Shown: piece by piece, positions 39,215 to 63,932 of the stretch
Numbering within the stretch: the first letter of the stretch is position 1
How the letters are laid out: every line of letters begins with the position of its first letter
Origin: Bacillota bacterium
GTDB lineage: Bacteria; Bacillota; SHA-98; Ch115
Assembly: GCA_013178415.1 (NCBI GenBank)
Contig: JABLXA010000011.1
Coordinates: 1 to 64,000 of the forward strand
Length of the DNA: 64,000 bases
Reading direction: 5' to 3'
The notes under the pieces: model-generated
The model's input: the letters and a program-made list of their open reading frames with translations, nothing else
Told to the model about the DNA's origin: nothing
Database searches by the model: none
Made by a program: the position numbers and the translations under genes

Positions 39215-39739
39215 CTATTCACTCAAGAGGTATCCCTTAGCCTCCAGAGCAGCCTCAACCCCGTCCAGCGCCGCCTCACTGGCTGCCTGCACTGTATGCA
39301 AATGCATTCCCTCGGTCAGAGCAGAAAGAGGTTTCGCGGCACTCTCGGTCAGCGCCCTGTCGAACTCCTCTACATCTTTATGCGATTCGATCATCAACAT
39401 GCCTCTAAGTTCTCCATAAAGTGGATGTTCGACGATCACATCAATAATGCGCCCGCCGTGGGCAACGATAGTGTGGAGTTCATCAGCCAGCTGTTCCCTT
39501 GTATGTTTACAGGCGATAACCCGCGTCGCGAGCCCGGGGATGACCTTGCCTGCAAGGAGGTATCCGCGCGGGGTAGATAGGATCTTTTCGCCCCTGGCGC
39601 GAAGCAAAGCTATATCCTGAACTATTACCTGGCGCGAAACTCCTAGGGAAGCAGCAAGATCTGAGCCTGTAACAGGCTCCCCCCGATCTTTGAGCACCTC
39701 GACTATCTTTTGTCGCCTGCTGCCAGATGACAAATCCAT
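39215..39739 (-). CDS. niaR: Niacin-responsive transcriptional repressor NiaR (3H domain)
   Basis: 174 residues. An N-terminal HTH_11 winged helix covers 1-60 (RRQKIVEVLKDRGEPVTGSDLA and SRQVIVQDIALLRARGEKI). The 3H ligand domain covers 70-174, with the family's conserved histidines in CKHTREQLADELHTIVAHGG, VEHPLYGELRGMLMI and GMHLHTVQA. NiaR/YrxA represses NAD-synthesis and niacin-uptake genes when nicotinic acid binds. A palindrome fitting such a regulator precedes the niaX-like gene. It follows ftsH by 73 bases on the same strand and may share its transcript, which ends at the terminator at 39109-39136. Confidence 0.94.
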   Translation of the reverse strand: MDLSSGSRRQKIVEVLKDRGEPVTGSDLAASLGVSRQVIVQDIALLRARGEKILSTPRGYLLAGKVIPGLATRVIACKHTREQLADELHTIVAHGGRIIDVIVEHPLYGELRGMLMIESHKDVEEFDRALTESAAKPLSALTEGMHLHTVQAASEAALDGVEAALEAKGYLLSE

Positions 39740-39812
39740 ACCTCTACCCCTGCGTTTCCGACACTATTGCTTTGAAATGGTTCGAATGATAAAAGAACCT
39801 CAAACTCGAGCC

Positions 39813-41774
39813 TCAGGCAGTTCCTGGATTCTCCGCAAGTATCCTGGGTTTGCGAGATTCCTTGGCACCGGAACCGCCCTGCGCCTCCGGCCCCGTGGTT
39901 ACAGCTGCTGCCCGGCCATCGTCCATCGCTTCGCCACCATGCATCCCTGCACTCTGGGGCATTTCATCGGCCTCGTTGAGGATGGCCTCCAGCTCCTTCC
40001 CCTCAATGGTCTCCTTCTCTTTCAGCAATGCCACCAATCTTTCCAGCTTCGCCCTGTTGTTTGTCAGTATCGTCCGCGCCTTGTTGTAGCAATTCATTAT
40101 AATCTCATGGATTTCCTTGTCTATAGCAGCGGCGATTTCTTCACTGTAGTTACGCTCTCTGGCTATATCCCTTCCCAGGAACACCGTTTCTTCATGGCGT
40201 CCGCCCAGCGTAAGAGGGCCCAGCTTTTCACTCATACCGTATTCAGTCACCATCTTGCGCGCCATCTTGGTCGCCCTTTCCAGGTCGTTTTGCGCACCGG
40301 TGCTGACTTCACCAAATACAATCTCCTCAGCCACTCGTCCGGCCATCAATACCGTAATTTCGGACAGCATCTCCGATTTGGTCAGAAAATACCTGTCCTC
40401 ATCCGGGAACATCAATGTATATCCACCGGCCCTCCCGCGCGGGATGATAGACACCTTATGAACTGGATTTGCGTCAGGAAGGGACTTGGCCACAAGCGCA
40501 TGACCACCCTCATGGTAAGCTACAAGCTGGCGCTCCTTTTCGCTCATGACGCGGCTCTTGCGCTCCGGACCCGCCACGACTCGATCGATGGCCTCATCGC
40601 ACTCAACCATCGATACTCTCTTCTTGCCGCGTCTGGCCGCAAGAAGCGCAGCCTCATTGAACATATTTTCAAGGTCCGCGCCAGTGAATCCCGGCGTCCT
40701 TCTGGCCAGGGTCTTCAGATCGACATCAGGCGCCAGTGGCTTGCCTCGGGAATGGACGCGCAATATACTCTCACGTCCATTCACATCCGGCATATCCACC
40801 ACGATCTGACGGTCGAACCGCCCGGGCCTGAGCAATGCCGGGTCCAAGACATCCGGCCTGTTGGTAGCTGCAAGCACGATGATCCCATTATTGGGTTCGA
40901 ATCCATCCATCTCGACGAGGAGCTGGTTCAAGGTCTGCTCACGTTCGTCATGGCCGCCGCCAAGTCCTGCGCCCCTCTGACGCCCCACAGCATCGATCTC
41001 ATCTATGAACACGATACATGGGGCATTCTTCTTGGCCTGATCAAAAAGATCGCGAACCCTGGCCGCGCCGACACCGACAAACATTTCTACGAAATCAGAC
41101 CCGCTGATTATGAAAAATGGCACGCCTGCTTCGCCGGCCACAGCTCTGCCAAGCAAGGTCTTTCCCGTGCCCGGAGGTCCTACGAGCAAAATGCCCTTGG
41201 GAACTTTCGCCCCGAGTTCGATGAATTTCTTGGGATGCTTAAGGAATTCAACGACCTCGGCAAGCTCCTCCTTTGCTTCATCAACGCCTGCAACGTCTGC
41301 AAAGGTGGTCTTCCCCTTCTCTTCAACATGAAGCCGCGCGCGACTCCGGCCAAAAGATATAGCCCGGTTTCCCCCTCCCTGCATCTGGTTCAAGAGGAAA
41401 ATCCACAACCCGACAAAGAAAAGCATGCCGACAACCTGAGGCAAGATGGCTGCCCACCAGGGCGGAGTCGGAGCGGGTTCAGCAGTTATTTCTACCTGTT
41501 TCAATATCTCGGGTTGCTGCTTCAATTTATCTGTCAAAAGCGTGATATCCGGCGCATAAGTCTGGAAGTCGCGCCCATCTCGAAGTGTTCCCCGAACGAA
41601 ATGTTCGCCGACTATATGCAGTTCCCGGACGTCTCCAGCTATCCACCTATCCAAAAACTGACTAAGGCTGATAGTTCTTGGCTGTTCTCTAGCCCCCCAC
41701 ATGTTGCTTGCGAGAGAGACCGTTATAAGACCCAGCAGAAGCCATAGCCCTAGGGTCCTGAATGCTCTATTCAA
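39813..41774 (-). CDS. ftsH: ATP-dependent zinc metalloprotease FtsH
   Basis: 653 residues. Two membrane segments ([19 protein letters not shown] near 8 and [20 protein letters not shown] near 108) flank an extracytoplasmic domain. The AAA+ module has Walker [16 protein letters not shown], Walker [13 protein letters not shown] and the second region of homology [20 protein letters not shown]. The peptidase has zinc motif HEGGH near 424. A Gly/Ala-rich low-complexity tail ends the protein. It degrades membrane and regulatory proteins and is needed for sporulation in relatives. The TTG at 41774 is the likely start because AAGGAGGT stands nine bases before it; an ATG 20 codons upstream has none. 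Confidence 0.96.
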
Positions 41775-41865
41775 CAAAGAATACCTCCTTGCAGTTTTCC
41801 GTCTAAAGGCGCCTTGCCCAATTGGCAGACACATGTAAACAATGGATAATCCCTACGCCAAGGCT

Positions 41866-62468: not shown

Positions 62469-63932
62469 ATGCTCCAGCCACTTGTAAACAGAGAGGAAAT
62501 ACGGGGAAGGCTCTTGCTGGATCTGGTTCGCCAGGTCGAGGCGAGGATCAAGGAACTCAAGCCTATTGAAGATGAATCCTTTGCGAAACCCCGGGCAATT
62601 GTAAGGCAGGGCGAGGAGCTCTGGCTTGAGATAAAGGATGTCCATGGAACCACTGCCTCGGAACTCTTGAATTCGTCCCCGCACGGATTGGACCCCAAGG
62701 TAGTCGCCGCTATTTTGAAGTCCATCGTCAGGGTCATGAGGGCCTATCATTCGAAAGGCCTCGTGCTGGGAGGAGTTACCCCTGACTGCATTATTGTCGA
62801 TCTCGATGCCGCTCATGGTCAGGAACAGGAAATCAGAGTTGCCATATTTGATCCCAAGATTCACCACCTTCTTGCGCCATATAGAGGAATCAATTCAAAA
62901 GAAAATAACTATGTACCGCCTGAAGTTATCAAAGGGCAAGCCTGGAAGCAAGAGCAGGATATCTTCGCGGTAGGAGTGACGCTTTATCACCTCTTGACAG
63001 GAATTCTGCCTTTCGATGACCGGGATCCCGCTATCGTGGCGGACAATATCTTACAAAAGGCCCCCCTTGATCCCCGTGTTTATAACGAGGATGTATCGCC
63101 TGAATTTGTTTCCCTCGCCCTGAAAATGCTGGAAAAAGACACAAAGGAGCGATACAAGAAGGGAGAGGAAATAGAATCTGAGATCGAGAGACTTCTGGCG
63201 CAAGGCAAGGTCGTGGCCTCTGATGAAGAAAAGAAAGCCTTCAGCCGTAAGGCGGGCCAGGTGCAAGTCAAGGAAAAAGCATTCGAAGTGCAAAGGTTCA
63301 TCCGCTATAGAGTAGGCCTAATAGCGGGTCTGGCTATCATAATTGTCGCAAGCCTCCTGCTTTTCCAGAAGGGCAAAGTGACCCCCATCATAACCCCATC
63401 GACCACGCCGGAACAAGTTGTGTCGCTCTATTACAAAGCCATTGATGATCTTAATGTACAGCTTCTGGATGAGGCTATAGATTCAAAGGCAGGGGCGAAC
63501 GTGACAAGATGGGTAACAAATCTTTACGTAGTCGAACGTATGAATCTGGCCATGGCGCTGCAACAGCCAATGCTGCCAACAGCGGCCGATGAAACCCAGA
63601 AGGCGCAATCTGGACAAGAAAAGAAGCCGCAATCCCAAGAAGAACAGAAACAAGGGCCGCAGAGGGGGAAGATTGAGGCAGGAAAGCCTGGACCAGGCCC
63701 CGGGCAGGTTGAGAATACCGCTCTAAAGGCGGTAGACATGGTGAAGGTGACCGATCTCAAGATCACGCATCTACCATCACAAGAGGAATCGCCGAGATTT
63801 CGCGCCACCTATCGCTTGACCCTTCCCTCGGAAGGAGGTCCCAAGACTACAGCATATGAGGATCTTCTGACTCTGAAGCGCGTAGAGGGCAAGTGGCGTA
63901 TAGTTGAGCTGAATCAAAAGCAACTTCCTTAG
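62469..63932 (+). CDS. Membrane-anchored protein-kinase-like protein (predicted pseudokinase)
   Basis: 487 residues. Residues 1-245 follow the Ser/Thr kinase C-lobe pattern: YVPPEV (148-153) for the APE motif, QDIFAVGVTLYHLLTGILPFDD (163-184) for helix F. The catalytic loop, normally HRDxKPEN, reads LGGVTPDC (100-107), the DFG motif reads DPK (128-130), and no VAIK lysine or glycine-rich loop is seen. Catalysis is therefore unlikely. A membrane helix spans 281-299, followed outside by a 180-residue domain starting TPEQVVSLYYKAIDDLN, with an NTF2-like look and a Gln/Pro/Lys-rich linker near 375-410. GAGGTG precedes the ATG. It may be a sensor or scaffold at the envelope. Confidence 0.8.
   Translation: MLQPLVNREEIRGRLLLDLVRQVEARIKELKPIEDESFAKPRAIVRQGEELWLEIKDVHGTTASELLNSSPHGLDPKVVAAILKSIVRVMRAYHSKGLVLGGVTPDCIIVDLDAAHGQEQEIRVAIFDPKIHHLLAPYRGINSKENNYVPPEVIKGQAWKQEQDIFAVGVTLYHLLTGILPFDDRDPAIVADNILQKAPLDPRVYNEDVSPEFVSLALKMLEKDTKERYKKGEEIESEIERLLAQGKVVASDEEKKAFSRKAGQVQVKEKAFEVQRFIRYRVGLIAGLAIIIVASLLLFQKGKVTPIITPSTTPEQVVSLYYKAIDDLNVQLLDEAIDSKAGANVTRWVTNLYVVERMNLAMALQQPMLPTAADETQKAQSGQEKKPQSQEEQKQGPQRGKIEAGKPGPGPGQVENTALKAVDMVKVTDLKITHLPSQEESPRFRATYRLTLPSEGGPKTTAYEDLLTLKRVEGKWRIVELNQKQLP

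Follow-up and report, generated by a model that had tools for sequence, protein, structure and literature searches.

The window spans 64,000 nucleotides, the opening 64 kb of a contig of 106,898 bases from a Bacillota bacterium, and contains an open reading frame of 487 amino acids on the plus strand (62469..63932). The frame starts with ATG, and its end coordinate includes the TAG stop codon. Since the contig is longer than the window, the gene itself is complete. The product, identified from the ORF reading, Pfam, and homologue searches, is a membrane pseudokinase with an extracytoplasmic NTF2-like domain. An earlier note on this DNA had described it in these terms; the Pkinase match, the loss of motifs, one membrane segment, and an NTF2-like fold confirm that observation and support its structural interpretation.

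The protein is composed of five parts, all encoded on the plus strand. A reduced N-lobe (residues 1-60, 62469..62648) is followed by a kinase C-lobe scaffold (residues 61-245, 62649..63203) and a basic juxtamembrane segment (residues 246-281, 63204..63311). Next is a single transmembrane helix (residues 282-300, 63312..63368), predicted to have its N-terminus inside, and then the NTF2-like domain (residues 301-487, 63369..63929). The latter houses a disordered insert rich in Gln, Lys, Pro, and Gly (residues 364-421, 63558..63731).

An adenosine-specific kinase (PF04008, E=1.3e-78) is located upstream on the opposite strand, and proC, also on the opposite strand to the pseudokinase, lies past the end of the window. 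A long CRISPR-like repeat array (L027:10880-15983, contig C11) is present past the window's end, 2 kb downstream of the pseudokinase, and is followed by cas genes that by eye resemble Cas2, Cas1, Cas4, and Cas7-type genes. Elsewhere in the window, open frames of 685 and 673 amino acids overlap on opposite strands (39690-41747, plus; 39813-41834, minus), and one of the two is probably spurious.

The Pfam Pkinase profile (PF00069) covers residues 44-230 (E=3.8e-14; 53 bits, with the cut-off at 31.7) and is found in 23/23 family members. The nearest solved structures by sequence are the Mycobacterium tuberculosis PknB domains (E=3e-11), and the best NCBIfam profile, matched by all 23 members, is that of the PASTA kinase family. 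An AlphaFold2 model of the whole protein, built with 14 sequences (mean pLDDT 79.5), contains alpha-C, beta4, beta5, and the full C-lobe. Its kinase part superimposes on PknB (3ori) over 226 residues (VIA-align Z 24.0, rmsd 2.9).

The N-lobe of the model is made up of a short strand, the alpha-C helix (residues 14-29), beta4 (41-47), and beta5 (50-55). Residue 1 pairs with PknB residue 37-38 in the structural alignment, which places beta1, beta2, and the glycine loop outside the protein; they are missing entirely and not just mutated. The roof of the ATP pocket is thus gone, and the beta3 Lys has no equivalent. The earlier note had listed VAIK as replaced. The element is indeed lost, although not by simple replacement, as the protein has no beta1, beta2, or glycine loop at all. 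A longer N-terminus is ruled out by the distance from the upstream stop to the ATG, which is only 10 codons and therefore leaves no space for a longer N-lobe. The reduction is shared by some relatives: fewer than 12 residues precede beta3 in 6/23 members of the alignment designated A2 (families f1, f34, and f64), and the other 17 retain 16-58 residues where beta1 to beta3 would lie. Without these elements, and with so few residues ahead of beta3 in the six, nucleotide binding is hard to square with the structure.

Catalytic motifs were compared across 32 full-length homologues: the 23 of alignment A2, one of which (L046) is truncated close to its C-terminal end at a contig boundary, and 6 plus 3 from further searches. 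In the window protein, the HRD position reads L100-G101-G102 (62766..62774) and the DFG position reads D128-P129-K130 (62850..62858), which agrees with the replacements first read from the sequence. Homologues with intact motifs aligning to these positions would contradict the pseudokinase assignment; HRD occurs in 0/32 and DFG in 0/32. The Asp of HRD is Gly in 24/32, Asp in 1/32, and Trp in 0/32. At the DFG position, Asp is kept in 29/32, Pro replaces Phe in 27/32, and Phe is found in 0/32. Each of the 18 pseudokinase-bearing genomes checked also encodes a full-length kinase in which VAxK, H(R/C)D, and DFG are all present, and the motif loss is therefore not an effect of lineage or alignment.

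The structural residues of the C-lobe have been kept. At the APE position (P150-P151-E152, 62916..62924), the Glu is conserved in 31/32 homologues, as is Arg280, and Glu152 and Arg228 of the window protein retain the C-lobe salt-bridge pair. Together with the PknB alignment, this bears out the claim that the C-lobe scaffold is preserved. In the outer domain, V354 and W476 are invariant (32/32), and the juxtamembrane residues A250 and E254 are conserved in 18/23 and 19/23 members, respectively. A conserved cytoplasmic Ser/Thr that could be a target of a PASTA kinase was also sought; the only such residue, T177, belongs to the LLTG motif of the C-lobe, and this candidate was rejected.

The sole homologue with an Asp at the HRD position is L102 (G358:C2, from a 6.0-Mb genome), where the motif reads FED. 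L102 lacks the His, Arg, Lys168, and Asn171, as well as the Phe and Gly of DFG, and is a candidate intermediate or chance reversion.

Some activity other than scaffolding could have been kept or gained in a nucleotide-dependent form, as in SelO and SidJ. The DFG-position Asp of 29/32 homologues, the HRD-position Asp of L102, and the 16-58 residues at the beta1-beta3 region in 17/23 members speak for such an activity. Where more of the N-lobe is kept, the DFG-position Asp may be a sign that some binding of metal or nucleotide persists, a point against the scaffold reading. The window protein, however, has no glycine loop, beta3 Lys, or HRD, and the DFG-position Asp is the only polar active-site residue on the list of conserved residues. 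A retained or new activity of this kind is thus improbable.

Residues 282-300 form the only hydrophobic segment of the protein, in line with the one membrane helix proposed earlier. Five Lys/Arg are found in the 20 residues before this segment and two in the 20 after it, which places the kinase part inside. One hydrophobic segment in the same place, with more Lys/Arg before than after, is observed in 23/23 homologues of alignment A2. Judged from hydropathy and charge balance, the likely topology is a cytoplasmic kinase-like domain and an extracytoplasmic NTF2-like domain. AlphaFold2 models the basic juxtamembrane residues 246-281 within one long helix (252-300), and the segment's basic character follows from its Lys/Arg balance.

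The outer domain is modeled with helices at residues 314-326, 330-336, and 343-363 and strands at 426-435, 443-454, 457-472, and 475-485. When folded alone (pLDDT 76.5), three helices pack on a curved four-stranded sheet, the arrangement of an NTF2-like fold. The ~58-residue insert 364-421 (pLDDT <50) sits between the helices and the sheet and, in the alignment, is long only in f1 and f2 members. Among the 50 matches listed by VIA, NTF2-like structures align over 94-119 residues with Z 9.9-11.7; these include a designed cortisol binder (11.7, the best), a CaMKII-association-domain protein (11.3), and the NTF2 domain of Clostridium thermocellum RsgI9 (11.2). The best Foldseek matches are CaMKII hubs (E=2.1e-4).

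A named family was not found for the outer domain in Pfam, NCBIfam, and PDB profile searches, and no NTF2-like Pfam family reaches its cut-off; that a family is missing from the lists of fold matches carries no weight. The outer-domain profile weakly matches the N-terminal part of PBP5/PBP2' (E=0.007), an NTF2-like region known as MecA_N. MecA_N itself is detected by Pfam in only one of the 23 members (E=0.19).

The pseudokinases form an orthologous family. The whole protein, searched against 299 genomes of the phylum, recovered PASTA and other kinases, plus distant full-length relatives. The outer-domain profile (A6) gives matches in 31 of the 398 phylum genomes searched. Thirty are strong (E<=6.4e-27) and are spread over about 12 families, one of them (G337) being cut by a contig end; the 31st (G041, E=5e-6) is weak and of doubtful meaning. 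The 12 f3 genomes (the window's own class) listed in this search lack the domain. The distribution check suggested in the earlier note thus yields homologues of the same plan in about 12 Bacillota families, a recurrence that is not due to chance.

Distribution outside the phylum was gauged by pattern scans of named genomes. A pattern from the window protein alone has no match in them. A further pattern scan gives 13 matches, all in records titled Bacillota, Firmicutes, Clostridia, or Hydrogenispora, including the Bacillota MAGs AS04akNAM_35 and AS04akNAM_80, Clostridia bacterium DTU084, and a Hydrogenispora sp. Among plasmid and phage records with a match, 80% coverage of the protein is reached in 0/153 and 0/12, respectively; the matches listed span the kinase part, and one phage match extends into the juxtamembrane segment. 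The idea that plasmids or phages carry the gene was rejected on these counts.

A maximum-likelihood tree that combines 23 pseudokinases with 23 kinases from their own genomes sets the two groups on opposite sides of one branch with 100/100 support. An origin within the PASTA-kinase clade is therefore unsupported, and the tree, which has several long branches, uneven composition, and an arbitrary midpoint root, does not resolve the source kinases of the family. A link to sporulation was considered and rejected: Spo0A scores over the cut-off in 21/22 genomes tested, among them the two f3 genomes lacking the pseudokinase, and therefore does not discriminate.

The family is under purifying selection. 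In five close pairs, dN/dS (Nei-Gojobori) is 0.06-0.25 in the N-lobe, C-lobe, juxtamembrane/membrane, and outer regions alike. These values bear on the idea that the gene is a decaying pseudogene of a PASTA kinase, for which the loss of all catalytic motifs and part of the N-lobe might be taken as signs. Constraint in every region, the recurrence of one plan across about 12 families, and the lack of internal stops among the copies listed refute such decay, leaving it a negligible chance.

The gene neighborhoods were compared at 23 loci, a check also suggested earlier, and no partner gene is conserved throughout. In both f1 genomes, the order is adenosine-specific kinase, pseudokinase, proC, and nitroreductase. 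In both f2 genomes, which belong to one genus, a same-strand membrane protein with a C-terminal Amidase_6 domain (E=1.6e-47) precedes the pseudokinase, and a DUF362-like gene (by eye) comes after it. These Amidase_6 neighbors (L032:3198-4502 and L030:10707-11936, both minus strand) lie directly upstream of the f2 pseudokinases. Their N-terminal part looks NTF2-like by eye, so that two NTF2-like envelope proteins would adjoin.

In most f22 genomes, the pseudokinase is part of a tilS-ftsH-LCP-comB-pseudokinase-hpt block read by eye, with a divergent GGDEF gene; LCP and GGDEF are confirmed by Pfam. By eye, this looks like the tilS-ftsH-hpt region, close to which Bacillus subtilis has yabT. In f64, f101, and f111, pgi and nadE adjoin the pseudokinase (one f64 locus by Pfam, the others by clustering), the nadE-like gene of f101 (L054) not being a direct neighbor. 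In f42, the neighbor is a folate cyclo-ligase. With no conserved neighbor, gene context gives no indication of an envelope role.

PASTA-type Ser/Thr kinases (PknB, PrkC, and Stk1) share a common plan with the window protein: a kinase-like domain inside, one membrane helix, and a sensor outside. The pseudokinase differs from them by the absence of HRD, DFG, the glycine loop, and the beta3 Lys, by its NTF2-like outer part, and by its separate clade. PASTA repeats have no Pfam match up to E=1 in the window protein, consistent with the earlier description of a PASTA-kinase-like plan that uses another sensor.

EssB/YukC is likewise a Firmicutes membrane-anchored protein with a cytoplasmic pseudokinase and a scaffold role, according to the passages on it in a 2025 review (PMC12599244). 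The window protein differs in its NTF2-like outer domain. The YukC Pfam profile has no match at E<=0.1 in 23/23 members, and no type VII secretion genes were seen by eye among the neighbors at the 23 loci.

The MviN/MurJ protein of M. tuberculosis (ActPs3) contains a cytoplasmic pseudokinase with all motifs degraded that does not bind ATP and acts as a scaffold, as the same review summarizes it (PMC12599244). ActPs3 is described there as mainly actinobacterial; the M. tuberculosis member is part of the multi-helix MviN, and not every ActPs3 sequence is so fused. The window family differs in being from Bacillota, as judged from named records, and in combining just one membrane helix with an NTF2-like domain. 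GLW pseudokinases have also lost their motifs and have a membrane helix after the kinase domain. They carry Gly-Leu-Trp in place of HRD and are mainly proteobacterial in the review's account (PMC12599244), whereas the Asp position of the window family is never Trp. DYD and DLHK pseudokinases, as outlined there, keep HRD and/or DFG (PMC12599244); the window family keeps neither.

CP1 pseudokinases are fused to a COG3899 ATPase and have no membrane helix in the review's passages on them (PMC12599244); the window protein has a membrane helix and no such fusion. A third kinase-like protein of the same genome resembles the CP1 group as described there. It is located at G000 contig C28:12493-12981, with a 1992-amino acid ORF (minus strand, in L029). 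It is motif-poor, with VILGNLNPDI at HRD and ADSN at DFG, and by eye carries ATPase, GAF, histidine kinase, and receiver parts after the kinase-like part. Similar long ORFs are present in G002, G003, G012, and G013.

The extracytoplasmic NTF2-like domains DUF3828, DUF3887, and DUF4878, and the MecA_N of PBP2a/PBP5, are also found beside membrane helices, and domains of this group can be joined to transpeptidases. DUF3828, DUF3887, and DUF4878 have no Pfam match up to E=1 in the 23 members. Extracellular NTF2-like DUFs, some joined to protein kinase domains, appear in the portion available of an earlier survey (PMC3924330), and the kinase-membrane-NTF2 plan is therefore known in kind. YabT of B. 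subtilis, a Hanks-type kinase, carries its membrane helix at the C-terminus, along with a basic juxtamembrane segment, according to the passages that describe it (PMC6333020). YabT is active and without an outer sensing domain, whereas the window protein is motif-less and has an NTF2-like one.

The 2025 review by O'Boyle et al. treats ActPs1-3, GLW, CP1, DYD, DLHK, EssB/YukC, and others (PMC12599244). None of its seven bacterial pseudokinase families, nor EssB/YukC or MviN, appears to fit the window protein, the comparison with ActPs1, CP1, DYD, and DLHK being by passages or headings. In the available text of the review, no family from Firmicutes is described as having an outer domain of the NTF2-like type, nor is NTF2 mentioned at all (PMC12599244). 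In the open-access main texts searched, pseudokinase and NTF2-like are found together only in a fungal genome paper. The earlier note's remark that such proteins are little described is in agreement with this, and the window protein belongs to a family that looks undescribed, of a type already known.

The protein is best read as a transmembrane envelope scaffold or receptor without catalytic function, for which the odds are slightly better than even (roughly 0.55). From the features above, we infer a loss of ATP binding, a scaffold mode of action, and a role in the envelope. The retention of structural residues alongside the loss of catalytic motifs argues for the scaffold part. The envelope part is favored by the f2 Amidase_6 neighbor and the similarity of the outer domain to PBP5/PBP2'; against it, the neighbor occurs in one genus only and the PBP match is weak.

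On the scaffold or receptor reading, the outer NTF2-like domain, tethered by the single helix, would bind a small envelope ligand or another envelope protein. The NTF2 pocket of Pgp2 binds peptidoglycan, as reported in the part of that study consulted (PMC8038945). Alternatively, the outer domain may self-associate like the CaMKII hub. Its state would be relayed inward, along the membrane helix and the long, basic helix adjoining it, to the kinase-like domain in the cytoplasm. The latter would no longer phosphorylate, and ATP binding is very probably gone because the glycine loop and beta3 Lys are missing. Its C-lobe surface may instead offer a partner a place to dock, by analogy with EssB/YukC, which scaffolds secretion, and the MviN pseudokinase, which recruits FhaA and dampens peptidoglycan synthesis, as covered in the review passages on both (PMC12599244). 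The likeliest client would be the cell-wall/division machinery or its PASTA-type kinase, which is present in all 18 genomes checked.

A rival role is that of an allosteric or decoy partner, in which the pseudokinase pairs with the intact PASTA kinase of the cell and, depending on the input sensed by the NTF2-like domain, raises or lowers its activity. Eukaryotes have heteromeric pairs of this type, made up of a pseudokinase and a kinase. The intact kinase in each of the 18 genomes, the closeness to solved PknB/PASTA kinase domains, and the PASTA kinase profile matched by all 23 members are in favor of such pairing. However, the 13 f3 genomes in which no pseudokinase was seen encode PASTA-type kinases as well, and co-occurrence therefore proves little. 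The two genes are also unlinked. PknB back-to-back dimers use the surface of the N-lobe strands, and the missing strands take away part of that surface in the pseudokinase. Pairing of this kind is possible but rather unlikely.

CaMKII has the same order of domains, a kinase followed by an NTF2-like hub, and the five best Foldseek matches of the whole model are full-length CaMKII (E down to 3.9e-13). CaMKII is an active soluble kinase, whereas the window protein has a dead kinase part and a membrane between its domains. The likeness is thus an analogy of plan, with kinship not shown. A tentative and speculative extension is that this is a new and widely conserved Bacillota family of transmembrane pseudokinase receptors that is the counterpart of CaMKII in plan. 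The external NTF2-like hub would assemble the protein and cluster the dead, partly N-lobe-less kinase domain at the inner face of the membrane, organizing the PASTA kinase or wall-building proteins. If true, this would be a receptor-like signaling module without phosphotransfer of its own.

Bacterial pseudokinases are largely unexplored experimentally, as the 2025 review puts it in the passages available (PMC12599244). Those known fall into a few protein families, and the window family spans about 12 families of a single phylum under purifying selection. Because of this broad spread, the selective constraint, and the several lineages without the N-lobe strands that hold ATP, the family is a clean natural case of a kinase C-lobe whose role would be limited to partner binding, and one in which to ask what an extracytoplasmic NTF2-like domain senses.
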